A stretch of DNA of 64,000 nt from a virus. This document shows positions 18,535 to 54,304 of the stretch, piece after piece. The notes under the pieces were generated by a model. The model made no database searches and was not told where the DNA came from. It was given only the letters and a program-made list of their open reading frames with translations. The stretch's first letter is position 1, and each line of letters begins with the position of its first letter. The DNA is taken from positions 1 to 64,000 of IMG/VR virus record IMGVR_UViG_3300009103_000008; one strand, 5' to 3'. The position numbers were made by a program, and so were the translations under genes.

Positions 18535-18817
18535 TTTTGTCCCTCTCGACTTGTTCCTCTAGGAGTTCCACTAGGATATCTCCCATAAGCTTTTCTAATG
18601 TATCATTATTTAGTAGTTCGTCCATTGTCAAATTTTCATCGTTAGGAAGTCTACGAATTGTTCGTTGAAAATTTAAATGTGGTTTACCTTCAACAAACTC
18701 CACATTACCATACTGATACACTAACCCTTCAAATTCTCCACTGACTATTTCTATGCCAGCATCTTTCTCATGTGGATTTTCTACCACTTGAAATACATTT
18801 TTAAATAATTTTGACAT
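18503..18817 (-). CDS. Hypothetical protein between dioxygenase and lysozyme, 104 aa
   Basis: Not recognised. It starts TAATG at the dioxygenase stop, with TTAGGAG, so it is coupled. It has a small beta-rich N-terminal part ('LVYQYGNVEFVEGKPHLNFQ') and an acidic helical C-terminus. It is always worth considering with the modification pair, because it is co-translated with it, but no motif supports a function. Confidence 0.55.
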   Translation of the reverse strand: MSKLFKNVFQVVENPHEKDAGIEIVSGEFEGLVYQYGNVEFVEGKPHLNFQRTIRRLPNDENLTMDELLNNDTLEKLMGDILVELLEEQVERDKNEQRSIEGTD

Positions 18818-19833
18818 TAGTCTCCTAAGAAACTATCTAAGCTACCATGTTTGTCTCTATGATGGTGTCCGATAGGATTCTCTGTTTTACCTCTTACACC
18901 TTTTGTTGCAACATCACTTCCACAATATGCAACACATGTATGTCTGACACCTTCACCTTTAATTTGAGTCACACCATGCAATTCATTTGAATCTGCAATA
19001 ATAACATCACCATCATCTGCATCGATACCAATTCCATATCTTGGGAATGATAGATATGCGCCTTCAAAATCTCCACAACGAAATACACACATTGTTGTCA
19101 TTCCAAAATCTAAATCGTCACCGTCAATATGTGCAGACATTTTTCCAGCACCTTCAACATATGAATATTTGTTTGCAGATATAGAAGTGAACGGAGCTCC
19201 TTGCAACCAGTATTTTTCTTCAACACACTCATCACAAAAATCTCTTTGTTTTTTCCAAACTTCGGGGGCCCCTATTTTTAATGCTTGTTCATTTAGAACT
19301 GCTATCTCTTGCATGCTTTCCCACTTCTCTTGGTTTCTTTTTAGTTTTGCCCAACCACTTAAACCAATCATTCCCGTAAATCTTCCTCTCTTATGTCCCA
19401 TAAAAATAGAATGAATAGGGTTTGCTTCTGCAATTCGATTGAACTCACCATTTTTCTTTAGTGGATAGTATGAGTTTGCAGTTCTTAATTTATAATGAAC
19501 TCCCTCTATCATACCTTTCTTTGCCATTTCATCTTTATCAATAGGGCCAGCTGCATTTGCACGAAGTGTAGATACATCTTCAATAGATTGAACTGTTGAC
19601 CTTAATTCTTCTAACTTCTCACCTTCGTATACGCCTTTAACAATACATGCAAGTAGAGGTGGTTCCTCTCCAAGTGTAGATACTGGTTTATAAATCTTGG
19701 TTAACTCGTGGTCTGTTCCCACGGTAGATACTAGGTCTGTGACTTCACTTCCGTCTAACCACTGACCGTTATACTTCTCCATAGTTTCTTTAAAACCATG
19801 GTCAACTGTTGGTGTGTGTGTTCTAATTGACAT
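18817..19833 (-). CDS. TET/JBP-like 2OG-Fe(II) dioxygenase
   Basis: A 338-residue dioxygenase with the facial triad H235-x-D237 (SAHIDGDD) and H286 (SNELHGV), and the 2-oxoglutarate-binding Arg at 297 (GEGVRHTC). The surrounding text, FRCGDFEGAYLSFPRYGIGI, is like the TET/JBP branch that oxidises 5-methylpyrimidines in DNA. It overlaps a cytosine-C5 methyltransferase gene by 11 bases, so it probably converts 5mC to 5hmC in phage DNA. The C-terminus GSLDSFLGD closely matches the clamp-binding tail of the DNA polymerase here (ASLDSFFG). A general protein or nucleotide hydroxylase remains possible. Ribosome site GGAGAAG. Confidence 0.75.
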   Translation of the reverse strand: MSIRTHTPTVDHGFKETMEKYNGQWLDGSEVTDLVSTVGTDHELTKIYKPVSTLGEEPPLLACIVKGVYEGEKLEELRSTVQSIEDVSTLRANAAGPIDKDEMAKKGMIEGVHYKLRTANSYYPLKKNGEFNRIAEANPIHSIFMGHKRGRFTGMIGLSGWAKLKRNQEKWESMQEIAVLNEQALKIGAPEVWKKQRDFCDECVEEKYWLQGAPFTSISANKYSYVEGAGKMSAHIDGDDLDFGMTTMCVFRCGDFEGAYLSFPRYGIGIDADDGDVIIADSNELHGVTQIKGEGVRHTCVAYCGSDVATKGVRGKTENPIGHHHRDKHGSLDSFLGD

Positions 19834-21064
19834 TATACTTCTCCAAAATATTTTCTAAGACACTTTCAACTAATGCCTTAAGACAAAGTGGTGCGACCAT
19901 TAATCCTATTCTTGCACCCTTGTCGTTATAATCTCCCGTACTCCTATAGTCATCGGGAAGAGTCATAATCCTTTGTAATTCCTTTGGAGTATATATCCTT
20001 TCTCCACTGGGGTGAAAATGATTACCACCCATAAACTTTGGTTGACACCCTTGTTCAGTTAATGAATGTGCAGCTTGAGTCCAAGGTACAATCCTTGACA
20101 TGTAATAAGAATGTTTTTCATCTTCGGGGTCAATGATACCCCTTGCAATTTGTTCTTTGAACCACGGGCCAACGATATCGTCTCCAATACTAACAACCCT
20201 TTCCATATTATTTATGCCCCTCATACCTAAGCATGGGCCCGAGTTGGGATAGTCAGGGTGAGTATCAAATCCAAATACCCAATGAGCCTTTGAAGAATGT
20301 CTCAAAGATTCTTCTAGGTATTTTGCATCGGTTATGTTTTGTTCGTCATCTTGTAAGTCTTCTATTGCATCTCTTACAGTCCATTCTTTTTGAGAAGGTT
20401 CAGGAAATACACTTCCTAAAACCATCCATGGCATTCCAATTTTATCTAATACATCATTACGAACTGCAAGTATAAATGTTCTTTCTCTTTTTTGTGGAAC
20501 TCCATGTTGGGCTGCATTCATAACTTTATAAACTGCAGAATATCCTTGTGCTTCAAAGTCTGTAATCATTCTATTCAAATGGTCTCTTGCATAGTCCATT
20601 GTAAGACCTTTTACATTTTCACAAATAACAATCTTGGGTTGGAGTTCACCAGTAATTCTAATTACTTCCCAAGTTAAATCTTCAATGTTTTCTTGCTTCA
20701 TTCCATATGCAATCTTCTCTTTGTTCCAACCTTCTCGTTTTGATCCAGCCATTGAAAATGGCGGACAAGGTGGACTTGCATCTAGAATATCTATTTCACC
20801 AACTCCTAGTCCACTAAGTTCCATGATATCTTTACCAGTAACTTTTTTAATGTCTTTACATTCGTGAACTGTGTTTGGGAAATTTAAAAGGTAGGTATCA
20901 ACATGAAGTTGTTGAAATTCATTCATGTATTTACAATCTCCACCTAAGAGTTTGTATGCACATGAAGAACCGCCTCCGCCAGCAAAGAAAGTTATATAAT
21001 TAAACTTCTTTGTTGAAGCACCTTCTTCAAGGTCTGATAATCTATATCTAAAATATTCGTTCAT
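19823..21064 (-). CDS. DNA cytosine-C5 methyltransferase
   Basis: A 413-residue Dcm/M.HhaI-type enzyme. Motif I is TFFAGGGGSS (25-34), motif IV ASPPCPPFS with catalytic C100, motif VI ICENVKG (E149) and motif VIII QKRERTF (191-197). The target-recognition region is about 200-330, and the C-terminal motifs resume at YTPKELQRIMTLPDDY. No restriction enzyme gene is adjacent, so it is an orphan methyltransferase. With the overlapping dioxygenase it would supply 5mC for oxidation. Recognition sequence unknown. Its promoter (TAGTCA-17-TATAAT) is of the early/middle type. Confidence 0.92.
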   Translation of the reverse strand: MNEYFRYRLSDLEEGASTKKFNYITFFAGGGGSSCAYKLLGGDCKYMNEFQQLHVDTYLLNFPNTVHECKDIKKVTGKDIMELSGLGVGEIDILDASPPCPPFSMAGSKREGWNKEKIAYGMKQENIEDLTWEVIRITGELQPKIVICENVKGLTMDYARDHLNRMITDFEAQGYSAVYKVMNAAQHGVPQKRERTFILAVRNDVLDKIGMPWMVLGSVFPEPSQKEWTVRDAIEDLQDDEQNITDAKYLEESLRHSSKAHWVFGFDTHPDYPNSGPCLGMRGINNMERVVSIGDDIVGPWFKEQIARGIIDPEDEKHSYYMSRIVPWTQAAHSLTEQGCQPKFMGGNHFHPSGERIYTPKELQRIMTLPDDYRSTGDYNDKGARIGLMVAPLCLKALVESVLENILEKYNVN

Positions 21065-21123: not shown

Positions 21124-21633
21124 CTATCCAACGAAGTCCTCGCCTTCGTTCCATGCACAACCAGTTAGTCCACCAGCTTGTAGTGCCCTTACAGTTCTTA
21201 GAACTTCTTGTGGGTTTCTACCAGTGTCTAATGCATTGCTTGATGCATGTTGGATTACTCCATCAGGGTCGATAATAAATGTTGCTCTATAGCATACACC
21301 ATTTTCTATATCTACCACACCAAGGTCGCTTGATAATCTAAGTCCAGTGTCAGCTGCAAGCGTATGTTGAATATTACCTATCAACTCATTATCTTGTTTC
21401 CATGCTAATTTACAAAACTCGTTATCACCACTGATACCGATAACTGATACACCCGCGTCTACCAATGCATCAAATCCAGCAATCTCTGTTGGACAGATAA
21501 AAGTAAAGTCTTTTGGATAAAAGTAAACCACTGACCAACCTTGAAGCCAGTCATTGTCTGCTGTCACAAATTCATTAAACTTATTAATCCCCTCTAATGA
21601 GAAGTCGGGGAATTGTTCACCTACTGTTTTCAT
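21124..21633 (-). CDS. 2-Cys peroxiredoxin (AhpC/TSA family)
   Basis: A 169-residue peroxiredoxin starting at the ATG at 21633 (MKTVGEQFPDFSL), chosen for the AAGGGAG site and ATGA overlap. The peroxidatic C47 lies in FYPKDFTFICPTE, and the resolving Cys in GLTGCAWNEGE near the C-terminus. It reduces hydrogen peroxide and organic peroxides using a host thiol donor. In a phage this is an auxiliary gene, presumably protecting the infected cell. Confidence 0.92.
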   Translation of the reverse strand: MKTVGEQFPDFSLEGINKFNEFVTADNDWLQGWSVVYFYPKDFTFICPTEIAGFDALVDAGVSVIGISGDNEFCKLAWKQDNELIGNIQHTLAADTGLRLSSDLGVVDIENGVCYRATFIIDPDGVIQHASSNALDTGRNPQEVLRTVRALQAGGLTGCAWNEGEDFVG

Positions 21634-21824
21634 AACATCTCCCTTAAAGGATTCCAACTATAATCGTAAGTGGAGAGTGTTCTAGTCCCACCTTGACTTG
21701 CTATAGTATTACATAACTTAATCATTTCTCTATCTGTCAAATCATTAAGATATTTGTTTAGGTCTGCTTCTATTGCGACTCTGTCATTTTTTGCACACTC
21801 TTGTATGCCCTCTTCTTTTTTCAT
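21630..21824 (-). CDS. Small hypothetical protein, 64 aa
   Basis: Not recognised. The start at 21824 (MKKEEGIQECAKNDR) follows GGAG; its stop overlaps the peroxiredoxin start as ATGA. It has two cysteines and a helical middle. Co-expression with peroxiredoxin is clear from the overlap. Confidence 0.5.
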   Translation of the reverse strand: MKKEEGIQECAKNDRVAIEADLNKYLNDLTDREMIKLCNTIASQGGTRTLSTYDYSWNPLREML

Positions 21825-21890
21825 AATTACTCCATAATAAAATGATACCACCATTATATCACATAACAGTGGTATCTGTATAGTGGGTTT

Positions 21891-22301
21891 CTATGAAATT
21901 TTGATAGAAACTGGTTTGTCTTCTTCGGGAATGACTCTCTCTAAGTTGACACTCAATATACCGTTTTTATACACTGCACTGGCGATTTCTACATCGTCTG
22001 CAAGTGTAAATCTACGGTTGAATGCTCTAGAAGCTAATCCTTTATGGACAAAGTCCTTCTCAGAATCTTCTGAACTACCCTCGATAACAAGAATGTTTTT
22101 CTCTTTAGTAACAGAAATTTCCTTCTTATCGAATCCAGCAACAGCAAGTTCAACGGTGAAATTTTCATCGTCTACTTTTACCACATTGTATGGTGGATAG
22201 TTTGATTGTGAGATTGTAGACATTCTTTCGAGGTCTTCGAAATATCTATCAAATCCTATTGCGAACGGTCTGAATTGACCAAATATATCTAAATGCGTCA
22301 T
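21891..22301 (-). CDS. hsp20: Small heat shock protein Hsp20
   Basis: An alpha-crystallin domain protein of 136 residues, IbpA-like: 'YPPYNVVKVDDENFTVELAV' starts the domain, AGFDKKEISV continues it, and AYKNGILSVNLERVIPE-type text ends it ('VYKNGILSVNLERVIP'). The C-terminal I-x-I motif (VSIKIS) is present for oligomer contacts. It holds unfolding proteins and is common in marine T4-like phages. It has an AAGGAG ribosome site and two stacked promoters upstream. Confidence 0.93.
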   Translation of the reverse strand: MTHLDIFGQFRPFAIGFDRYFEDLERMSTISQSNYPPYNVVKVDDENFTVELAVAGFDKKEISVTKEKNILVIEGSSEDSEKDFVHKGLASRAFNRRFTLADDVEIASAVYKNGILSVNLERVIPEEDKPVSIKIS

Positions 22302-22362: not shown

Positions 22363-22412
22363 TATTTATAATACTTATATACCTATTATATGGGTTTTTT
22401 CAAAAATTTCAA
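22363..22412 (-). promoter_or_regulatory. Dual promoter of hsp20: sigma70-like plus exact late TATAAATA
   Basis: TTGAAA (22412-22407), 16 bases and TATAAT (22390-22385) form a sigma70-like promoter with AACCCTC upstream. Downstream in the leader, TATAAATA (22370-22363) is an exact late promoter box set inside a small inverted repeat AAGTAT/ATACTT. Expression in both phases is implied. Confidence 0.6.
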
Positions 22413-24286
22413 GAGGGTTTTTGTAATTTTCTTAATTTCCTATCAATTAAAGGTGCATATATCTTAACTGGAATTTCCTTTCCTTTAACATTTATTTCGT
22501 CAAGATACTGCCATTCACAATCAACTTGTTTCTTTGTGAACTCTGACATTATAATTGGAGTGTCATATTGCCTTGTTTGGACTTCGAGTCTAGCTGCAAG
22601 GTTAACAGCGTCACCGACAACTGAATAATCGAATCGTGCTTCACTTCCCATGTTTCCGACAATGCATGGGCCTGTATTAATTCCCGTGCCAATGACTACT
22701 GGTGGTAAATCTAATCCTTCCCTTTCTATATCTATATTCATTTGTTCTGTTAATAGTTCTATTTCTATTGCAGATTTCAAAGCCATTTGTGCATGGTCAG
22801 GGCAATCAAGAGGAGCTCCCCAAAATGCCATCAAGCAGTCACCCATATATTTGTCGATGGTTCCACCATTTGCTAGGACAATTTTAGACATACCGTCTAG
22901 GAATCTATTAATTAGTTCCACTAATCCTTCGGGGTCGTCATTCTTCATGTATGCTTCTGATATTGGAGTGAACCCAACTATGTCTGCGAAGAGGAATGAA
23001 AGTTCTCTTCTATCTCCACCAAGTTTCAATAATTCAGGGTTTTTTTGGAGTTCTTCAACCATGTCAGGAGATAAATATTTTTGAAACTGCTTCTTAATAA
23101 GTTCTTTGAGTTGATAAGTTGTATAGTATTTGTTGAAGGAAGCATGTCCGAAAACTATAATGGAGGCAATCGATGAGTAGAAAGTATCGAAAAGAACGAG
23201 AGATGAAGACCACCAATAGAGAGACCCACCCACCTGAAATCCAACGAAGACTAGAGAAGCTATCCCCGCAACGGCTGTGGGAAGTGTGTAGACCATTACC
23301 AATATTCCTAGAAGGACTGTCAGCAGAAGAGCGAGAGATAAGAATTCAAGATAGTAGGATTGTTGTATTCGAACATCTTGCAAAACGGTTTGGAGAAGTG
23401 AGGCTTGAACTTTATGAGGATACATTACACCCACTGGGGTTGAAACTGGATTATTAAGTCCCTCTGCAGTTAATCCCCAAATCAGTATCTTACCTTCAAG
23501 GTCTGAGTTGGGTAAATCCATTGCAGATATTCTCTCAAAATCGAACCAGTATCCAATTTGAACATCTGCAGTTGAGGTTGTTTCTATGGGAGGGCTCCTA
23601 CCCATTCGAATCCACTCGATTCCAGCTTCTTCCGTGACTCGTGTTTGATAATTCTTATGGTCACCAAATGCACGAAGAACCTCTAGTGCAACCGAAGGAT
23701 ATACAACATCATTTGCAGATACTATTAATGGTGCTGAACGGATTGTCCCGTCAAAGTTTGGTGTTCCTGAAATACTAGGTGTTGTGACTGTCACTCCTGA
23801 ACCATACGAATTCTGTTTCAGGATATCAACTGGTGAAGCAATGCCAGAGAAGCTCCAAATATGGTCTTTTATCTCGCCGTCACCGAACACCGAAGTCTTA
23901 ACAAATGGTGCAGACCCAGTATCTAATTGAGTTGTGGGTGCAGCTGATAAAATCGATAGCCGATTAACTAATCCTTCTGCAAAAGCTTCGTCCCCTGAAA
24001 ACCTATCAGGGTTTTTAAACAACTGGGTAAATACATGAGTGTTGGTATAATGTGATTCCAACATTATATCTGCATAGATATTTCTCGGCCATGGGTATTG
24101 ACCATACTTCTGTAGTGACTTCTCGTCTATGTCTACTAGAACTATGTTATCGGTTTGTTCTATTTCTTTTGATTGGTGTAGGAAGTCAAACCAAGACCAT
24201 GTAACATTCTCAATAAGATATGGATTCCATACCTTAAGTCCGAATAATAACGAGACAGTTATTAATACTGTCTTCCACGAGTACAT
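22409..24286 (-). CDS. CHASE2-domain class III nucleotidyl cyclase
   Basis: A 625-residue membrane sensor cyclase. The ATG at 24286 (MYSWKTVLITV) overlaps the upstream stop as TAATG. It has an N-terminal membrane helix (~5-20), an exported CHASE2 sensor (~30-300; 'NIVLVDIDEKSLQKYGQYPW' is typical), three membrane helices (~311-390) and a class III cyclase (~425-615). All catalytic residues are visible: metal Asp D435 (FADIVGFT) and D483 (YMGDCLMAF), purine-selecting K479 and D553, and N562/R566 (VNLAARLE). Lys and Asp at the selector sites favour ATP, so cAMP is the likely product. It is the last gene of the curli-like operon, which is unusual for a phage. Confidence 0.92.
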   Translation of the reverse strand: MYSWKTVLITVSLLFGLKVWNPYLIENVTWSWFDFLHQSKEIEQTDNIVLVDIDEKSLQKYGQYPWPRNIYADIMLESHYTNTHVFTQLFKNPDRFSGDEAFAEGLVNRLSILSAAPTTQLDTGSAPFVKTSVFGDGEIKDHIWSFSGIASPVDILKQNSYGSGVTVTTPSISGTPNFDGTIRSAPLIVSANDVVYPSVALEVLRAFGDHKNYQTRVTEEAGIEWIRMGRSPPIETTSTADVQIGYWFDFERISAMDLPNSDLEGKILIWGLTAEGLNNPVSTPVGVMYPHKVQASLLQTVLQDVRIQQSYYLEFLSLALLLTVLLGILVMVYTLPTAVAGIASLVFVGFQVGGSLYWWSSSLVLFDTFYSSIASIIVFGHASFNKYYTTYQLKELIKKQFQKYLSPDMVEELQKNPELLKLGGDRRELSFLFADIVGFTPISEAYMKNDDPEGLVELINRFLDGMSKIVLANGGTIDKYMGDCLMAFWGAPLDCPDHAQMALKSAIEIELLTEQMNIDIEREGLDLPPVVIGTGINTGPCIVGNMGSEARFDYSVVGDAVNLAARLEVQTRQYDTPIIMSEFTKKQVDCEWQYLDEINVKGKEIPVKIYAPLIDRKLRKLQKPS

Positions 24287-24450
24287 TATGTTATCCAACA
24301 AACTGGATATACACACCAGTAAGGATTAGCTACTCCTAAAAGCCACAATATAAAAATCCATAAGGGAATCTGTATCCAAGTTTTTCCTTTAGACCATTCC
24401 CTGAACCTGATGGCGTGCGGAACCATCTTATTAAACAACCATTGTTTCAT
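24286..24450 (-). CDS. Small membrane protein, 54 aa
   Basis: The start at 24450 (MKQWLFNKMVPHAIRFREW) is chosen because it overlaps the stop of the preceding small frame as TAATG; a longer frame from 24519 has no ribosome site. It has a basic N-terminus, then a membrane helix 'IPLWIFILWLLGVANPYW' and a short tail with two cysteines. It directly precedes, and is coupled to, the CHASE2 cyclase gene, so a partner subunit is possible. Confidence 0.5.
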   Translation of the reverse strand: MKQWLFNKMVPHAIRFREWSKGKTWIQIPLWIFILWLLGVANPYWCVYPVCWIT

Positions 24451-24557
24451 TAGGAGACCAGTCGATAAAACGACAGTGCTAATCCAACCAATAAGGTTCC
24501 TAATACTATAAAAACCCATTTGATATGAAATTTATAATTTATTATTTTATCCCACAT
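24450..24557 (-). CDS. Very small membrane protein, 35 aa
   Basis: A short frame, MWDKIINYKFHIKWVFIVLG and onward to YRLVS, with one membrane helix. It begins 3 bases after the curlin-like gene stop and ends in a TAATG overlap with the next gene, so it fills the gap exactly. No strong Shine-Dalgarno sequence; support is the tight coupling and the hydrophobic profile. Moderate confidence only. Confidence 0.4.
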   Translation of the reverse strand: MWDKIINYKFHIKWVFIVLGTLLVGLALSFYRLVS

Positions 24558-24560
24558 AAT

Positions 24561-25400
24561 TTAATCTTGTGTTACTGTAATTGTGCAACCGCCGACTGTA
24601 TAACAAGCTTGAGACAAAGTATATGACTGAGCTGAGCCTGCGTGTTGCGTTAAATCTAAAGTAGTTCCATAAGTACCATTCAAAGTAATATTTGCAGTAT
24701 GTTGAGCATTACCGTCTTGAAGATAGTCAACAATATTAGAGTCATTATGAACTGTTAAGTTTAATGTCTTTGAACTGTCTCCTTTCTGTTTTCCAAACAC
24801 ATCATTGTCATCTCCATAGAGATAGATTCTTGCTGAATGTCCGTCACAATTATTGTTTGCACAATTCCTTTGCTGTCCTTTTATTGAATTATCACTACCA
24901 TGGATATCTATGGTGACAGTATGATTACCGCCGTCATTATTATCTATTGACCATGTAGTGTCGTTACGGTTTGAGAATTCATATCCTTGGGCCCACCAAA
25001 GTGTATTGTCATCTCCATATGCTATGTGGAACTGAATGTCGTTTTTACCGCAGGACGAATTTTTCGTGCAGTTTTGGTAGAGTTTAAGTGATTGTCTTTC
25101 TCCGTCAATATCGCCACCCCAACCATAACCTGAGCCCCAGCTGGGGGAATCATTTGCGTATCCAATTTCATTATTGTTTCCTTTTTGTAAGATTTCTATA
25201 TCGTAATCGTCTCCGTCTCCAAGTGAGAAAAAGATATTGTTGTTGAATCCTTCTTGGTCGATAGTTAGGTCGAGATTATCTCCACCCGCTGTGACCTGAT
25301 TAATATTGATACGGTTATCATCATCAGCAAATGCTTTAATTGCTGAAAATAACACCATGAGTGTAAAACACCCTATGAATAATTTTGCTGACCAGTCCAA
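24561..25400 (-). CDS. Secreted curlin-like repeat protein, 279 aa (TTG start)
   Basis: There is no usable ATG. A TTG at 25400 follows TGAGGGAAAA, a strong ribosome site, and yields the signal peptide MDWSAKLFIGCFTLMVLFSA ending AFA-DDD. The mature protein is Asn/Gln/Asp/Gly-rich with imperfect repeats of the curlin type (Q-x-G-x-x-N-x-I): IDQEGFNNNIFF and ILQKGNNNEIGY, then degenerate copies. Four paired cysteines (YQNCTKNSSC, RNCANNNC) are unusual for curlin. It shares the operon with CsgG and CsgF, so export through the CsgG pore is likely. Amyloid formation is inferred. Confidence 0.7.
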   Translation of the reverse strand: MDWSAKLFIGCFTLMVLFSAIKAFADDDNRININQVTAGGDNLDLTIDQEGFNNNIFFSLGDGDDYDIEILQKGNNNEIGYANDSPSWGSGYGWGGDIDGERQSLKLYQNCTKNSSCGKNDIQFHIAYGDDNTLWWAQGYEFSNRNDTTWSIDNNDGGNHTVTIDIHGSDNSIKGQQRNCANNNCDGHSARIYLYGDDNDVFGKQKGDSSKTLNLTVHNDSNIVDYLQDGNAQHTANITLNGTYGTTLDLTQHAGSAQSYTLSQACYTVGGCTITVTQD

Positions 25401-25417
25401 TTTTCCCTCAGTTTGTT

Positions 25418-25567
25418 TCACCCACAAATCCACCAAACAAGTAAAACAAGAATTACACCTTCAGCCCATGCTATCCAAAGTGCTTGGTAATCTGTAAGGT
25501 TGAATCTATCGATAAACTTCCAACAAAGTCTTTCGTGCCATTCTAAAAAGTCCTTTAAATATTTCAT
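25418..25567 (-). CDS. Small membrane protein, 49 aa
   Basis: A short gene with a clear TTAGGAG site ahead of the ATG at 25567. It reads MKYLKDFLEWHERLCWKFID at the N-terminus and ends in a membrane helix 'WAEGVILVLLVWWICG'. It fits exactly between the FecR-like gene and the ribosome site of the curlin-like gene. The function is unknown; it is one of five small membrane proteins in this operon. Confidence 0.6.
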   Translation of the reverse strand: MKYLKDFLEWHERLCWKFIDRFNLTDYQALWIAWAEGVILVLLVWWICG

Positions 25568-25589
25568 ATTTACTCCTAATGTCTTTTAT

Positions 25590-26732
25590 TTAGTTAGTTT
25601 GCCTGATTACAATTTCAATATTGGTGTCTCCTTGACCGAAATCAATAATCCCTTCATACCCGTCTAAAGTTAAATCTAAGTATCCTAAACCTCCAGCTGC
25701 AATGATTATCTCAATCTTTCCATTCACATCTCTATAGAGATATAGGTCTCCGTCTTGGACAAATACATTAAACTGTGAGTCTTTATTGAATCCTTGGACT
25801 GCACCTTTAATATTGAATTGTCCTAGGGTTGCTCCACCACCAGTTGAGCCTGACCCTTTAATCTTTTTATCTAGTGCTTCTACCACATCTAATAAATCTG
25901 TCAAGAAGTCAACTCCAAGCATATCTATATCAAGCTCAGTGAAATCATCTTCCATGGTATCTTCGAGTTCGTCTGACTCTAAATCATTGAACTCTAAAAA
26001 GTCTACATCTAGTATTCCAGTATCGTCATTTTGGTCGTCAGCGACAGCGTCTTCTATTGCTTGTTTAACTTCCGCAGGTGGAGAAACAATAAACATGTTA
26101 TCAATCATTGAAGGTGTTATGTTTTGAATAATAACATTTTGTGTTGGAGGAGATTCCAAAGTAGAAACCATAGTTGCCTGATATGGAAGATTGAGTAAGG
26201 TTTCTCCACCCTCATTAAATACTTTTATCTCACCACTAGAACCACCTGTTTCATCAGGTAGCAGAATCACGAGTGTTCTCCCGAGCTCGTCAATAGTAGT
26301 TGTAAAATCTGTGCCGTTGATTGCTATTTGAGCTGTCGGCGTTGAAATATCTATGTTTGCTTTCTTTATTTTTTTCCCTTTCCCTGAAGCAAACCTTGCT
26401 GTTCCTTGAACCATTCTCAAGGACATTTTTGATAATGAGGGATTAGGGTCATAGTATACTTCGTCTATGTATACTACTGTGTGTTCGATTAAATCAAGTT
26501 CCTCTTCGTCTAAGAACTCAATCTTCATTCTGCCGTTTACTGTTTCGGCTTCGTCATACAAAAAAATGTCACCACCGACATTATTCTGTTGCACTTCATT
26601 GTTTCTAACTATCTGGCCTATACCAGTAGACTCAACAATGTCTCCAATGGGGTCTGCAAATGCGACCCCACTGAATAACAATATATTAAGAATCGTTAGC
26701 TGCGTCTTTCTGATTGATTTGAATAACTGCAT
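25590..26732 (-). CDS. Secreted FecR-domain protein, 380 aa
   Basis: The start is the ATG at 26732 (MQLFKSIRKTQLTILNILLF), giving a signal peptide cut after FADA-type text (VAFA-DPIG). Residues 20-190 match the FecR domain: an early beta stretch 'GDIFLYDEAETVNGRMKIEF', then PTAQIAINGTDFTT and TLVILLP. The middle (~210-270) is a very acidic low-complexity linker, and the C-terminus is beta-rich, ending IVIRQTN. It overlaps the curlin-like gene upstream by 47 bases. FecR proteins relay signals across the envelope; next to a CHASE2 cyclase a sensing role is plausible. Confidence 0.75.
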   Translation of the reverse strand: MQLFKSIRKTQLTILNILLFSGVAFADPIGDIVESTGIGQIVRNNEVQQNNVGGDIFLYDEAETVNGRMKIEFLDEEELDLIEHTVVYIDEVYYDPNPSLSKMSLRMVQGTARFASGKGKKIKKANIDISTPTAQIAINGTDFTTTIDELGRTLVILLPDETGGSSGEIKVFNEGGETLLNLPYQATMVSTLESPPTQNVIIQNITPSMIDNMFIVSPPAEVKQAIEDAVADDQNDDTGILDVDFLEFNDLESDELEDTMEDDFTELDIDMLGVDFLTDLLDVVEALDKKIKGSGSTGGGATLGQFNIKGAVQGFNKDSQFNVFVQDGDLYLYRDVNGKIEIIIAAGGLGYLDLTLDGYEGIIDFGQGDTNIEIVIRQTN

Positions 26733-27432
26733 TATCACTTGTTATATCTAATGTAATTAAAGCATTTGGAGTTGCACAACTGTTTCCAGCTCCACTTACA
26801 CATGTTCCTGATATCTGATTGATATCCACATCTGCACTATCTCCTGTTAATTCAACCGTCATTTCGTTTGCACCATCTTTCTGTAATGTATTAACATTAT
26901 TTGAGTCACCAGTTATATCCCAGTTCCAAACAACATCATCGGATTCAAAATCCAAATCAAATACATTCGAAGAACCCACTAAGACTAAATCTGCATTTAA
27001 TCTTTCTGCTCCTAAACCATATCCTTGGTCAATGTCAAAGATGTTTGAATCTCCTTGAACAGTGAAAAGATAATCAGTAGCATCTGCTGACCCTACATTA
27101 CCAATGTTCCAGTCTATCTTGTTCGAATCACCTGTGAAGGTTAATGTATATTTCGAACTGTCTGCAACAACGGGCCCGAATAAGACATTCTGATTACCAG
27201 TAAAGTCTAAATCGAACTCCAAAGTTTGTCCTGTAATAAGCATGGCGGTTATGCTTCCGCTGGAACCATCGTTACCACCTATCTTATTACCAAAACCTAT
27301 TTGGTCAATGTATATTTTTAATGTATCACCCGTTTGGGTAATCTTAATTTCATTGTCATCAGTGGCTGCTCCGAAAACGATAGGCGAAGCCAATAATAAT
27401 ATTGCTCCTAATAAACTAATTAGTTTCTTCAT
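26686..27432 (-). CDS. Secreted curlin-like repeat protein, 248 aa
   Basis: The start at 27432 gives a clean signal peptide MKKLISLLGAILLLASPIVF-GA. The mature protein is built from Asn/Gln/Asp/Gly repeats: IYIDQIGFGNKIGG, FTGNQNVLF, VQGDSNIFDIDQGYG, TGDSNNVNTLQKDGAN and DINQISG. These fit the curlin pattern of a Gln, a Gly and an Asn per strand-turn unit, though divergent from E. coli CsgA. One Cys pair lies near the C-terminus. It is the first curlin-like gene after csgG, overlapping it by 17 bases. Probably the main or nucleating subunit. Confidence 0.72.
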   Translation of the reverse strand: MKKLISLLGAILLLASPIVFGAATDDNEIKITQTGDTLKIYIDQIGFGNKIGGNDGSSGSITAMLITGQTLEFDLDFTGNQNVLFGPVVADSSKYTLTFTGDSNKIDWNIGNVGSADATDYLFTVQGDSNIFDIDQGYGLGAERLNADLVLVGSSNVFDLDFESDDVVWNWDITGDSNNVNTLQKDGANEMTVELTGDSADVDINQISGTCVSGAGNSCATPNALITLDITSDNAVIQINQKDAANDS

Positions 27433-28345
27433 TTTCGTTATACCCCTCGGGGAACTTTTCGTCATACCCCGTTATGTTCCAAAAACCTCTTTCGTGTCCT
27501 TGGTATACTAATTCCAGCACTCCAGCTTCAATAGCTGTTCGCACTGCGTAAGTCACTGACTCATTATTTCCAATGCCATCCTCTATCTCTATTAATTGAG
27601 TTCCTTGTTCTACGAAACGGAAAACATCGCCTCCCGTTCCATAACTCAATATAGTCTTTCGAGTTTGGACATTTAATAAAACCTCTCCAGTAAGAACTGA
27701 TACAGCTCTTATTGAAATGGTCACGACATCTTGACGATATCGTTTACTATAACCAATACCTAGTGTCCGTGCGCCTCGTCCACCTGTTCTTATATTGGTA
27801 TCATAACCAATTACTCCACCCTCTATTATCATACCCGCAAAGAGTAGTGGTTGTATTCCTTCGGCTTCGTCTTTACCTTCAGCCTTAGCAAATTCTGTTC
27901 TTGCAGACCTAATAATCTGCCTTTCTCTAACTAAGTGGTCTATACCACTTCGTTCTACTACCCTAAACCAAGTACCATTTCCAGCCGTTTTAAGAGCGTC
28001 TATGACCATTTCTTGTCCACCTTGGGTCACTGCAGTAGAGAAGCTTGCAATGTTGTCTACGGACTTCCTCTGTCCAGTCTTATCTAAGAACTGATAAACT
28101 GCAACTACTGGCATCTCTTCTGCTGGTGGTAATCTTAATAGTTCAAGAAATGAGGGTAGTCTTACTACTTCGGGGTCTTCCACACAAATATATTTTCGTG
28201 CAAACTGTTTCTTTACCCCAGTGTATACATCTTTCTTAAACCCTTCGTCCCAGCGACCACAATTTTGTGGGTCGTCTGTCCACTTAGGAATTGAAGCACA
28301 GCTACTCAATACTAAAAGTAATGCTAATGAAAGAACCTTAATCAT
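27416..28345 (-). CDS. csgG: CsgG-like curli secretion pore lipoprotein
   Basis: A 309-residue CsgG-family lipoprotein: signal peptide with lipobox LSSC and lipidated C16. It then has the conserved 'MPVVAVYQFLDKTGQRK', 'WFRVVERSGIDHLVRERQII', 'LLFAGMIIEGGVIGYDTN', 'GARTLGIGYSKRYRQDVVTI' and VLLNVQTRKTI. CsgG forms the nonameric outer-membrane channel for curli subunits. The transmembrane hairpin segments (around RTGGRGARTLGIGYSKRYRQ) are intact. It starts TAATG at the csgF-like stop. It is full length compared with E. coli CsgG (277 aa), with ~30 extra residues. Confidence 0.93.
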   Translation of the reverse strand: MIKVLSLALLLVLSSCASIPKWTDDPQNCGRWDEGFKKDVYTGVKKQFARKYICVEDPEVVRLPSFLELLRLPPAEEMPVVAVYQFLDKTGQRKSVDNIASFSTAVTQGGQEMVIDALKTAGNGTWFRVVERSGIDHLVRERQIIRSARTEFAKAEGKDEAEGIQPLLFAGMIIEGGVIGYDTNIRTGGRGARTLGIGYSKRYRQDVVTISIRAVSVLTGEVLLNVQTRKTILSYGTGGDVFRFVEQGTQLIEIEDGIGNNESVTYAVRTAIEAGVLELVYQGHERGFWNITGYDEKFPEGYNENEETN

Positions 28346-28881
28346 TAGGTTCCTCCGTCGCCACCCCCGCCATCGACAGGAATCGCGTCAGGGTCTTGTG
28401 CAAAATTACCAGTTCCTATAGGTATTTCAATAATGGTTGATGTTCCGTCTTCACCTATAATGGTCATTCGTATGAACTCAACCCCTGCTTCATCTGTTAA
28501 TACTTCCCAAGTAATAGTGTTTCCTTCTAGAATAAATGAACCAAATGAACTTGAATTATCATTTGAGAACATAGATTCAACTAACTGTTTTGCAAGTGTA
28601 GCATAAATTCTGCTTTCTAAGTTTCTAATAAATTTTGCAAGAACCGTATTGTCTGCTTCTCTTTCTGCAGCTTTCCTAGCTGACTCCAAAGCATCTTCGA
28701 TTTGTTTCTTCCGAGAAAATTCCTGATTCTCGATAGTTAAATAATGAGCACCCTGACCCTGTTTACTAAACGATGGATTTCCAAATTTATGAACAATCTC
28801 ATCTGCGTAAACATTCGTTGCATGTAGAAATAAAACCCCTACAATGATAATGCTACTTACGACTTTTTTTATTACTGACAT
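28345..28881 (-). CDS. csgF: CsgF-like curli assembly factor
   Basis: A 178-residue secreted protein: signal peptide ending VYA-DEI, then 'IVHKFGNPSFSKQGQGAHYL', equivalent to the CsgF N-terminal peptide that plugs into the CsgG channel. It continues with a helical region and a beta C-terminal domain (SFGSFILEGNTITWEV, STIIEIPIG). It has a Gly-rich end, GGGGDGGT. It is longer than E. coli CsgF (138 aa). Ribosome site AAGAGGAA; it overlaps the membrane gene upstream by 29 bases. In curli systems CsgF anchors the nucleator at the cell surface. Confidence 0.85.
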   Translation of the reverse strand: MSVIKKVVSSIIIVGVLFLHATNVYADEIVHKFGNPSFSKQGQGAHYLTIENQEFSRKKQIEDALESARKAAEREADNTVLAKFIRNLESRIYATLAKQLVESMFSNDNSSSFGSFILEGNTITWEVLTDEAGVEFIRMTIIGEDGTSTIIEIPIGTGNFAQDPDAIPVDGGGGDGGT

Positions 28882-29131
28882 TCTTTTCCTCTTGTTCTTG
28901 CTGTTCCTTATATTCTAGCACTGTGTTAACCTTCTGCTGTAAACGAATCAAGTCGTTATCTAACATTCTAATTTGGTCAAGAAGTCTTATAAGGATTGTA
29001 TTAGATTTTCCTAGAGCAGGTTTTAGTTCTTGTGTGACAAATTTCCACACAAAAAATATAAAATACCCCATGCCCAGTGCGAGAACCACGGGAAAACCGA
29101 ATTCTGCAATCATCTGAGCTATGGTATTCAT
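28853..29131 (-). CDS. Membrane-anchored coiled-coil protein, 92 aa
   Basis: One membrane helix ('FPVVLALGMGYFIFFVWKFV') is followed by a coiled coil 'LLDQIRMLDNDLIRLQQKVN' and a charged tail. The start overlaps the previous stop as TAATG. It looks like a paralogue of the next gene upstream (same TM-coil layout, shared 'RMxxND' region). Not recognised; an inner-membrane partner of the export system is possible. Confidence 0.6.
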   Translation of the reverse strand: MNTIAQMIAEFGFPVVLALGMGYFIFFVWKFVTQELKPALGKSNTILIRLLDQIRMLDNDLIRLQQKVNTVLEYKEQQEQEEKNVSNKKSRK

Positions 29132-29424
29132 TAGTCCCTACGAGAATCTATCTTCTCATCTTCTATAAAATTCTCTGCACGAGCAATTCTATCAATGTCT
29201 GGCTTTAAATCTAAAGCCGAAGAAACCAATAAGTCAATCTTAATCATATCATTGTTCATCATTCGAACACGATTCTCTAAAGATTCCATAATACCAGCCA
29301 ATCCTTTTACTTGTCCTACCACTGACTCTAAAATATACTTCAAAGTCAGGAATATAAAGAAGGCCATAATCACTGCACTTCCTATAGGAATGCCCACTTC
29401 ACTCAAAAATGTTAATATATCCAT
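29131..29424 (-). CDS. Membrane-anchored coiled-coil protein, 97 aa; first gene of the curli operon
   Basis: It has an N-terminal membrane helix 'GSAVIMAFFIFLTLKYILES' and a coiled coil 'IMESLENRVRMMNNDMIKID'. Similar in layout to the 92-residue gene that follows it. The ATG lies five bases after CATAAATA, so the operon's mRNA should start at this start codon. The function is unknown. Confidence 0.6.
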   Translation of the reverse strand: MDILTFLSEVGIPIGSAVIMAFFIFLTLKYILESVVGQVKGLAGIMESLENRVRMMNNDMIKIDLLVSSALDLKPDIDRIARAENFIEDEKIDSRRD

Positions 29425-29429
29425 ACCAT

Positions 29430-29437
29430 TATTTATG
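29430..29437 (-). promoter_or_regulatory. Late promoter of the curli/cyclase operon, leaderless type (CATAAATA-N5-ATG)
   Basis: CATAAATA, then ATGGT, then the ATG at 29424. A factor-independent terminator ends 42 bases upstream, so this promoter heads an isolated late operon. Confidence 0.65.
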
Positions 29438-29478: not shown

Positions 29479-29507
29479 AAAAAAAAGGAGACCGAAGCCT
29501 CCTTTTT
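29479..29507 (-). terminator. Rho-independent terminator
   Basis: On the minus strand AAAAAGGAGGC-TTCG-GTCTCC is followed by seven or more T: a GC stem with a UUCG loop and a U tract. It ends the 87-residue gene's unit, before the curli/cyclase operon. Confidence 0.85.
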
Positions 29508-39243: not shown

Positions 39244-40746
39244 CTAAGCTAATAAGTGGAAGTCGGGACTACTTATACCATGTGTATCTTTAACATTGTC
39301 AATTTCTATTCCAAAAAACTTTAATAATTCCCTGAAAAATTTTCTACCCATACTAGCAATCTTCTTTAACCAAGACCATATCTTTTTCATTGCAGCCTTC
39401 AATGCCTTTTCAAAGGCTTTCCATGCCTTTTGTCCCATTTCTTTTGCCCAATCTCCAGCTCTTTTTATAGTATCAAATACACCTTCTTCTAACATGTCTT
39501 CTGTTAGGAACTGTGCAAACCCGTCTATATTATTTAATTCACTTAATATAATACTTGTTGCAGTTGTTGGTGTATATTCATCTTTTAATGCAAGTTGGAA
39601 TGCAGAATAAGCTGCAGAACCACCACCACCTTTCTTAAATGAAACATACGGTTTTAATCTTTCTGCATTTTTTGCTATAACAGGTGAATCAGGATTCTTC
39701 ATTTCATGATATTCAACTTTCCCACTTAAACTAAATTTTGCAAGTCTGTTTGCAGCTGGGTGTTTGTCTCTACCATCAAACTTTGCAGCCCCAGTAGAAG
39801 CTTCATAAAGAACACATCTTGCAAATGTTCCACCTATTTTTTTATCTTTTGCAAATATATCGGTAAGTTCTTGAGATAATTCTCTATTTGCATCGTCTAC
39901 CTTCTTCCAATTTTGAGTGGCTGCATCTCTGTCACCGTCCTTATATCTTGCCTTTAAGGAACTTGCATTCTCTTTAGAGATTAAGTGTTCCATTTTATTA
40001 CCCATATTGGTAACAAGAGATTTTGCCCAAGTCTTATCCTCTTCTCCAGCTAATTCAAGTGCAGCGTTGACTATTGCTATTGCTTCTTTCTTTTCAGGAG
40101 TAGCTGATCTAGAACCACCTTCTTTCTTTAGTGAAATTCTTTCGGAAAAGCTAGAGTTTGCAATATCAGTTTTTGGTGTAGTATTAGATGCACCAGCATT
40201 TTTCCAGTGTTTACCTAATTTTTTAGATAAACCACCCTGACCAGTATGAACTAATTGATTACCACCTACTTTTCCATTAAAACTTTTTGCAACTTTCTTT
40301 GCTATGTCATGGTGTTGAGTTCCAAATTTTTCGTAGGTTTCAATAACTTTAGGGTGTGTATCTGTTTTATTTAAATCATTATATTCTTTAATAATTAATT
40401 CTTCCCATTCTGCCCCACTTGGTGGTGACCCACTTTCTTTAACATGAGTGAAACTTCCTACACTGGTTGTGTCTGCTTTGATATGTAAAATCTTACCATT
40501 CGGCCCTCGTAGATATGCTTCATATTCTGAACCGCGGTCTTCTACTCCAGCTGGGTTTTTAACTGGGTTTACCTTTTCTACTACAGTGCCCTCTTTCCAC
40601 TCTAGACCAAATGCTTGAATTTGTTTTGATAGTCCACCCTTATAATAAAACTTATGCCCAACGACATAATCCAGTTTTAATACTGAACCCTCTAATAATA
40701 AGTTCTCTCTTCTTTCTTTTATAAGTCTGTGGATTGTTTCTGACAT
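39244..40746 (-). CDS. Hypothetical protein with processing sites and amphipathic C-terminus, 500 aa
   Basis: Not recognised. Residues 17-20 give LLE/G and a site near 430 gives LEE/G (DMLEEGVFD), both fitting the prohead-protease rule. The ~70-residue tail released by the second site is a run of basic amphipathic helices 'KAFEKALKAAMKKIWSWLKK', which could attack membranes or bind DNA. The middle is mixed, Lys-rich, with a Gly-rich loop near 370. The ATG lies five bases after GATAAATA, so leaderless late expression is predicted. I infer a head-internal protein. Confidence 0.6.
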   Translation of the reverse strand: MSETIHRLIKERRENLLLEGSVLKLDYVVGHKFYYKGGLSKQIQAFGLEWKEGTVVEKVNPVKNPAGVEDRGSEYEAYLRGPNGKILHIKADTTSVGSFTHVKESGSPPSGAEWEELIIKEYNDLNKTDTHPKVIETYEKFGTQHHDIAKKVAKSFNGKVGGNQLVHTGQGGLSKKLGKHWKNAGASNTTPKTDIANSSFSERISLKKEGGSRSATPEKKEAIAIVNAALELAGEEDKTWAKSLVTNMGNKMEHLISKENASSLKARYKDGDRDAATQNWKKVDDANRELSQELTDIFAKDKKIGGTFARCVLYEASTGAAKFDGRDKHPAANRLAKFSLSGKVEYHEMKNPDSPVIAKNAERLKPYVSFKKGGGGSAAYSAFQLALKDEYTPTTATSIILSELNNIDGFAQFLTEDMLEEGVFDTIKRAGDWAKEMGQKAWKAFEKALKAAMKKIWSWLKKIASMGRKFFRELLKFFGIEIDNVKDTHGISSPDFHLLA

Positions 40747-54296: not shown

Positions 54297-54304
54297 TATT
54301 TATG
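54297..54304 (-). promoter_or_regulatory. Late promoter of gp20, leaderless type (CATAAATA-N5-ATG)
   Basis: CATAAATA, ATATT, then the ATG at 54291. It lies in the 42-base gap after gp19. Confidence 0.65.

Follow-up and report, generated by a model that had tools for sequence, protein, structure and literature searches.

An eleven-gene late-type operon in a T4-like myophage joins a predicted CsgG/CsgF exporter and curlin-like proteins to a FecR-domain protein and a CHASE2 receptor cyclase

We analyzed a curli-type gene cluster in a 64,000-nucleotide stretch of viral DNA (positions 1 to 64,000 of the IMG/VR virus record IMGVR_UViG_3300009103_000008), referred to here as the window. The complete record is 106,152 bases long and belongs to a marine T4-like myophage, with family matches to a DNA polymerase, portal, sheath, terminase, and SbcCD-like proteins. 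Its portal is closest to those of phages Melnitz and Mosig and of cyanophages (56% and lower), and its DNA polymerase to those of cyanophages (about 47%). Eleven genes run along the minus strand from 29424 to 22409 in the order p1, p2, CsgF, CsgG, curlin-like protein 1 (curlin1), FecR-domain protein, a 49-aa transmembrane (TM) protein, curlin-like protein 2 (curlin2), 35-aa and 54-aa TM proteins, and a CHASE2 receptor/cyclase. All features of the operon described below lie on that strand; Pfam matches were judged against curated cut-offs, and signal peptides and N-terminal hydrophobic segments were called by eye.

An intrinsic terminator (29482..29507) with an 11-bp stem and a T-run separates the operon from the gene upstream; its hairpin has a folding energy of −17.8 kcal/mol (z −5.8), and 0 of 200 shuffled sequences was as good. 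It is followed by a T4-type late promoter box, CATAAATA (29430..29437), which lies 13 nt before the p1 ATG and differs from TATAAATA by one mismatch. The first-pass annotation, made from the window alone, had described an eleven-gene late-type operon chained by TAATG and short overlaps, behind a terminator (given there as 29479 to 29507) and a late promoter, and without CsgE. This description holds in all its parts: every open reading frame (ORF) was found at the place and on the strand given, the hairpin is strong, and the box is present and has its equivalent upstream of p1 in most relatives. Four junctions are one-base TAATG overlaps (p1/p2, CsgF/CsgG, 35aa/54aa, and 54aa/cyclase), four overlaps are longer (p2/CsgF, CsgG/curlin1, curlin1/FecR, and 49aa/curlin2), and the only gaps are 22 bases 3′ of FecR and 3 bases 3′ of curlin2. 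A search for CsgE returned no match across the 106,152-base record at E values up to 1, with a positive E. coli control, while CsgC and CsgD were not searched for. The arrangement supports reading the eleven genes as one transcription unit with a late-type promoter.

The CsgG outer-membrane lipoprotein channel (27416..28345) matches PF03783 at 1.3e-50 (172 bits against a cut-off of 20.8) and carries a Leu-Ser-Ser-Cys lipobox, read by eye; a profile of 8 viral CsgG proteins matches solved CsgG (3x2r, 6l7a) at 1.1e-68. The CsgF-like protein (28345..28881) matches PF10614 with 41.1 bits against a cut-off of 25.8 (2.4e-10), and sequence searches with the phage CsgF found no solved CsgF relative. 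These matches support a predicted CsgG/CsgF exporter. We also encountered a csgG gene 40% identical to that of the window in a 1,499-base record labeled “Salmonella phage” (OR851715), which is probably host DNA.

Curlin1 (26686..27432) has 248 aa from its likely start, ATG 27432, and curlin2 (24561..25436) has 291 aa from an uncertain TTG start. With Curlin_rpt scores of 25.8 and 21.0 bits, respectively, both pass the cut-off of 20.7 narrowly, with one repeat each near the N terminus only, and both have N-terminal hydrophobic segments. Repetition is clearer in the GxxN motif, which occurs in curlin1 on average 7.3 times per protein versus 2.1 times in shuffled sequences, with a spacing of 20 to 27 residues in 223 of 329 cases, mostly 22 or 26 aa; in curlin2 the spacing is weaker (20 to 27 in 26/78). 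The AlphaFold2 model of curlin1 is a beta-solenoid (predicted local distance difference test [pLDDT] 82.4, predicted TM score 0.77), and its profile reaches CsgA (8enq) at 1.7e-4. The structural matches of curlin1 included no CsgA chain, which is no proof of absence. Curlin2 has a conserved Cys pair near its C terminus, and its ORF length ranges from 118 to 466 aa versus 227 to 293 aa for curlin1. The first-pass annotation had named unrelated beta-helices without export as the outcome that would speak against curlins; the solenoid modeled for curlin1 is also the fold of curlins.

The FecR-domain protein (25590..26738; PF04773, 1.2e-7) begins with a stretch resembling a signal peptide and has a separate beta domain at its C terminus. 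Its AlphaFold2 model, built with 53 sequences (mean pLDDT 76.6), comprises an N-terminal helix (residues 3 to 21), a FecR fold (32 to 191; about 80 to 93 per block), a poorly modeled linker, and a confident beta domain at about 303 to 380. Residues 59 to 214 match the signaling domain of PupR (6ovk_R; Z 15.3, root-mean-square deviation [rmsd] 2.3, 135 aligned), and a “cell surface anchoring domain” (5ix9) is matched by residues 28 to 123 (73 of 76 aligned, Z 9.9, rmsd 2.2). Neither Pfam nor the model gave an anti-sigma domain, the signal-peptide-like helix being followed by the FecR fold, so that the published label of iron regulator looks wrong on both sequence and modeled structure. The last element of the protein is a short beta strand that resembles curlin strands and has a Gln that never varies. 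This terminal pattern is found in 53/53 aligned proteins, the window included, versus 7.6% of interior 10-mers, and because the 53 proteins are related, their shared pattern is no independent test. Profile-profile comparison aligned 12 columns at E 0.13 with a probability of 0.5%; the strand is therefore rejected as a proven curlin repeat and stays a lead. In 398 Pseudomonadota genomes, 16 of the best 25 FecR matches lie in open frames of >1,000 residues, and none of the matches listed extends beyond profile position 290; the C-terminal domain thus looks phage specific in this sample.

The last gene (22409..24286) encodes a CHASE2 receptor with a class III nucleotide cyclase domain (PF05226, 2e-28; PF00211 [Guanylate_cyc], 5.7e-18). 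Its most likely start is ATG 24286, the listed ORF to 24316 being an extension, and solved class III cyclases, CyaB among them, match the cyclase domain. Residues D435, K479, D483, N562, and R566 (numbered from ATG 24286) are all present; we take D435 and D483 to be the metal-binding aspartates, K479 the purine-site lysine, and N562 and R566 the transition-state residues. All five are kept in 98/105 complete viral cyclases, and both metal Asp, the Lys, and the Arg in 105/105. At the second purine site, 98 of the 105 have Ser or Thr and 7 have Asp, and the window has Ser; Ser or Thr at this site is presumably the class IIIb pattern, which belongs to bicarbonate-responsive cyclases. The membrane receptor would probably make cyclic AMP (cAMP).

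The two genes that open the operon encode p1 (29131..29424; 97 aa; phrog_18771, 8e-27) and its paralogue p2 (28853..29131; 92 aa; phrog_18771, 9e-30), for which no Pfam family scored over its cut-off. Their counterparts in relatives, 82 to 135 aa as ORFs, have one TM-like segment and a coil-like helix, as judged by eye. By position, p1 and p2 seem to be the proteins labeled “histidine kinase” in PMC9599517. None of 19 p1/p2 members matched HisKA/HATPase or another kinase family at E up to 0.05. A His residue occurs anywhere in 24/106 p1 and 86/109 p2 relatives, and the alignments hold no invariant His column; the kinase label looks wrong at the sequence level.

Relatives of the operon were gathered by CsgG, cyclase, and FecR scans of IMG/VR, together with Pelagibacter phage HTVC008M, Melnitz, and six phage-like contigs in bacterial metagenome-assembled genomes (MAGs). 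The viral scans took the best 80 loci each, so that distant layouts, whose existence the p2 scan described below shows, are under-sampled. At least 243 loci collapsed to 149 non-identical operons, many of them partial; an operon is counted here as a cluster sharing no identical 80-residue protein end and is not a species. All eight of the larger genes were detected in 63 operons, at least five in 116, at least two in 137, and one only in 12. The order p1-p2-CsgF-CsgG-curlin1-FecR-curlin2-cyclase was broken in 0/149, with no gene on the opposite strand. The same gene order in related contigs had been proposed as a check on the first-pass annotation, and it is violated in none of the 149, no sampled relative having scattered genes. 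The first detected gene was not p1 in 43 operons, 8 of which had >1 kb of upstream sequence (3 beginning with p2, 1 with CsgF, and 4 with the cyclase); the cyclase was not reached in 29, none of which had >2 kb left. Genes overlapped or were separated by ≤10 bases at 111/112 CsgF/CsgG, 114/117 CsgG/curlin1, and 115/115 curlin1/FecR junctions, counts in which overlaps are overstated since the first start codon was taken as the start of each ORF. Spacing was looser between curlin2 and the cyclase, with a gap of >300 bases in 27/88.

The promoter is conserved along with the order. NATAAATA, which occurs in the window 26 times on the coding strand and 2 times on the other, lies ≤70 nt upstream of p1 in 82/106 operons, exactly 13 nt before the start in 39. 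Upstream of interior genes it is rare (p2 1/109, CsgF 3/112, CsgG 0/113, curlin1 0/117, and FecR 0/115; 4/566 in total), apart from curlin2 (12/100), and the background is 47/2980 random 70-mers from the same loci. Since the relatives share order and promoter, neither is due to chance, and the motif suggests that the operon is expressed late. The T4 late promoter occupies positions −13 to −6 relative to the transcript start; with the box at −13 to −6 before p1, many of these operons would start with a leaderless message. Elsewhere in the window, late boxes with an ATG five bases after them, which would likewise give leaderless late messages, lie at 54304, 48480, 40759, and 6056 (minus strand), in addition to 29437; four of these five sites are listed gene starts, 48480 being the exception, and the other window late boxes followed by a listed gene are 16 to 69 bases from its start. 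One late box stands 13 bases ahead of a gene (39244 to 40746, minus strand) for a 500-aa protein, which had no match in Pfam at E up to 1e-3 and none in PHROG at E up to 1e-5.

Searching with p2 added, among the matches listed, 73 new loci (L507 to L579), in which the module is on the same strand as p1-p2 in 48 and inverted in 21, while 4 show p1-p2 alone. Of the inverted loci, one (L577) is divergent and twenty are convergent, so that in these p1-p2 point toward the cyclase end; as 21/73 are inverted and still beside p1-p2, the block has been inverted as a unit. No CsgG was reached in fourteen loci that had ≥3 kb of downstream sequence; searches of the complete record for 12 of them found CsgG in 8. 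In L574 (5669 to 6430; record of 48.8 kb), one of those without CsgG, p1-p2 and a late box are followed by a short CsgF-like N-terminal remnant, read by eye, and tblastn found no csg genes in the locus. L574 may have lost its csg module, the remnant being a scar, and the retention of p1-p2 there suggests either a use of their own or a recent loss.

Bacterial counterparts were sought at 73 csgG loci of our genome_contigs set and, in a second sample that overlaps the first, at 38 csgG places in 37 of the 398 Pseudomonadota genomes. The 73 are what is left of 79 after removal of six contigs (L029 to L033 and L035) that carry p1 and/or p2. These six hold the same operon in MAGs labeled Sphingobacteriales (two), Synechococcus, Flavobacteriales, Saprospirales, and Neomarinimicrobiota; they are probably wrongly binned phage contigs and would mislead searches for cellular curli. 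FecR, CHASE2, and cyclase genes stood beside cellular csgG at 0/73 and 0/38 places, some with short flanks, so that curli export coupled to a receptor cyclase was found beside none of the sampled bacterial csgG genes. The neighbor profiles, built from viral proteins, could miss distant FecR and CHASE2 proteins, yet they find cellular ones (L208 to L222). That the whole operon already exists in bacteria was thus considered and not found at these places; Alphaproteobacteria, whose number in the sample was not established, are the donor class named in PMC9599517.

FecR and CHASE2 do occur together in bacteria. A CHASE2 protein lies near FecR in 9/19 bacterial places, which is not a rate, as the 19 were mostly picked by ORF size (about 250 to 570 aa) and two were already known to have a neighboring cyclase. 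Six of the nine pairs are adjacent and share a strand; those of L221 and L222 have their two genes on opposite strands. Seven of the nine have a cyclase match; L219 has none, and in L211 the CHASE2 protein ends in SpoIIE. In L211 (G364:C1:321500-333500, in a 1.2-Mb genome with 32% GC locally), FecR lies 1.3 kb downstream of the CHASE2-SpoIIE protein; FecR may thus accompany CHASE2 proteins that differ in their output domain. FecR-CHASE2 clustering is described for Campylobacterota (PMC9239204), and in Sinorhizobium meliloti smc02177, a FecR-domain gene whose number adjoins that of cyaD1 (SMc02176), is activated via its cAMP cascade and needed for output of the CHASE2-cyclase cascade (PMC5498481). 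As in the phage, these clusters place an extracytoplasmic FecR-domain protein near a CHASE2 cyclase. As far as the accessible parts of the two papers go, a phosphodiesterase and a tetratricopeptide repeat protein accompany the pair in Campylobacterota and the regulator Clr in Sinorhizobium, whereas the phage record has no cyclic-nucleotide-binding effector such as Clr; no csg genes are named there for either cluster, unlike in the phage. Bacterial curli (type VIII secretion) share the CsgG channel, CsgF, and candidate curlin repeats with the phage operon, which differs in lacking CsgE, reported as not essential for curli (PMC7029224), and in adding FecR and the CHASE2 cyclase. Because FecR-CHASE2 stands alone in bacteria and is absent beside sampled csgG, the phage operon can be read as two bacterial modules fused, and these gene neighborhoods are most simply explained by an ancestor in which a curli export set and a FecR-CHASE2 pair came together.

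The operon is not new as a kind. The first-pass annotation had taken the full set with a cyclase to be novel, a claim that does not stand: Wittmers et al. 2022 (PMC9599517) report HK(1-2)-CsgF-CsgG-CsgA/B-FecR-CsgA/B-AC in pelagi-podophages and pelagimyophages, with the same genes in the same order as in the window and CsgE lacking in both, and already propose superinfection defense, besides “sibling capture” and uptake, for a module that is expressed in metatranscriptomes. Another paper described the csgF-csgG operon, proposed sibling capture, and called the function unclear (PMC7029224), and a role in lysis was proposed for the Melnitz genes (PMC9004378); a literature search of open-licence PMC papers gave no further paper on the operon by title. 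Relative to the labels in PMC9599517, p1 and p2 of the window have no kinase domain, FecR has no anti-sigma part, and the operon holds three tiny TM genes; the comparison also adds the promoter and the inverted layout, although the latter may already be in Fig. 6 of that paper. HTVC008M (NC_020484) and the Methylophilales phage Melnitz (MZ577097) are collinear with the window from p1 to the cyclase, with cyclases 40% and 33% and CsgG 50% and 46% identical, respectively, over the matched parts. The Melnitz record annotates FecR and two “curlin associated repeat” proteins, whereas the paper says that csgA/csgB are lacking (PMC9004378). What we add is the test of gene order, the p1 promoter, the relabeling of p1/p2 and FecR, the reading as fused modules, and the conservation of catalytic residues.

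The function suggested in the first-pass annotation, late export of a fiber under a sensor that alters cAMP, is plausible from the genes and largely published. We favor, with a probability of about 0.55, a late single-promoter operon in which CsgG/CsgF export curlin-like solenoids to the surface and an envelope-sensing CHASE2 cyclase makes cAMP, with FecR beside it. Late in infection, and without CsgE, CsgG and CsgF would move both curlin-like beta-solenoid proteins to the cell surface. FecR would act in the periplasm or at the outer membrane, where its FecR fold or its C-terminal beta domain would retain or pass along either the exported protein or the exporter. The state of the envelope would be sensed by the CHASE2 cyclase and converted to cAMP, and FecR could feed into the cyclase, work alongside it, or follow it; control of smc02177 by the cascade, and the finding that it is dispensable for perception (PMC5498481), point to a place beside or after the cyclase rather than to input. 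The likeliest benefit, a guess shared with the literature, is that the changed surface of a doomed cell would keep other phages off or hold nearby cells. Fiber, export, and cAMP alike are proposals from the gene content.

Several observations weigh against this proposal. The Curlin_rpt scores are close to the cut-off; the best structural matches of the curlin1 model are the beta-helices of SufB/SufD (Z 17), and Foldseek gave weak matches at most (best E 0.36); no solved curlin was found with curlin2, which was undetected between FecR and the cyclase in 11/149 operons. CsgA has a Gly-rich N-terminal export signal, and none was seen in the curlin-like proteins. Ser replaces the catalytic Asn in 7/105 cyclases, and Melnitz also has Ser. 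No cyclic-nucleotide-binding domain was found in the virus record, which may be incomplete, and a phage-encoded cAMP receptor was accordingly dropped as a candidate. In S. meliloti, smc02177 is dispensable for plant-signal perception by the CHASE2 cyclases (PMC5498481), and no clumping was seen in Melnitz culture (PMC9004378).

A bolder version gives FecR a central part: neither iron regulator nor anti-sigma factor, it would anchor or nucleate the curlin solenoid, as its curlin-like terminal strand might allow, and partner the CHASE2 receptor, so that outer-membrane export late in infection sets cAMP in a closed loop. We regard this as doubtful.

Among the alternatives, lysis timing, as proposed for Melnitz (PMC9004378), would make the CsgG/CsgF pore a gated secretin or pinholin and p1/p2 small holin-like or spanin-like proteins. 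The late-type promoter fits it, as do the short TM and coil architecture of p1/p2 and the matches of p2 to an Rz-like spanin family (phrog_89, 6.4e-4) and a holin family (0.068), with one of the 19 members touching YvrJ at 0.038. These spanin and holin matches are weak, and p1/p2 as holins were dropped for that reason; nor would lysis timing call for a pair of curlin-like proteins, FecR, and a cyclase with conserved catalytic residues, all in fixed order. An outer-membrane pore alone does not collapse the inner-membrane potential. We consider this explanation unlikely.

Also unlikely, in our judgment, is that the solenoids do not polymerize and instead form a secreted coat or decoy that masks receptors or binds competing phages, with CsgG as exporter only. 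The marginal curlin-like scores and the far more variable length of curlin2 than of curlin1 would suit such proteins, but along the length of curlin1 the curlin-type spacing is regular, and a profile of this protein matches CsgA. Uptake of larger nutrients or cofactors through an ungated CsgG channel (PMC7029224 and PMC9599517) agrees with the missing CsgE cap in the 106,152-base record; it leaves CsgF, as PMC7029224 itself says, and the other genes unexplained, and a late-type promoter would act when uptake helps least, which makes it improbable. Signaling of the iron type, with FecR as an iron-citrate regulator and the small proteins as histidine kinases (the labels in PMC9599517), can point to a real FecR domain with a PupR-like fold and to some His in p2 of 86/109 relatives but is very improbable given a FecR with a signal-peptide-like start and no anti-sigma domain match and small proteins with 0/19 HisKA/HATPase matches, no invariant His column, and His in p1 of only 24/106.

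The three small TM proteins have a narrow distribution. The 49-aa protein (25418..25567) has a BLASTP match at the same place in 10/28 loci, several of them near-copies; the sole match of both the 35-aa (24450..24557) and 54-aa (24286..24450) proteins is in a near-identical locus (L002), and the 54-aa protein has no PHROG. After the operon come peroxiredoxin (AhpC/TSA) and Hsp20 genes (21124 to 22301, minus strand), Hsp20 with its own late box at 22370. Farther on (18817 to 21064, minus strand), a C5-cytosine DNA methylase (PF00145, 1.1e-49) overlaps a TET/JBP-type 2-oxoglutarate oxygenase (PF12851, 1.3e-11), judged from its domains likely to be a DNA hypermodification pair converting 5-methylcytosine to hydroxymethylcytosine.

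It is puzzling that a phage devotes 7 kb to export when its host cell probably has little time left. The doubts about published labels, the conserved late-type promoter, and the split into export and receptor parts turn a “curli gene set” into parts that can be tested. The feature that merits attention is the linkage of a FecR-CHASE2 pair to an export operon in widespread marine phages; should the CHASE2 cyclase read export, it would serve as an envelope sensor made by the phage.

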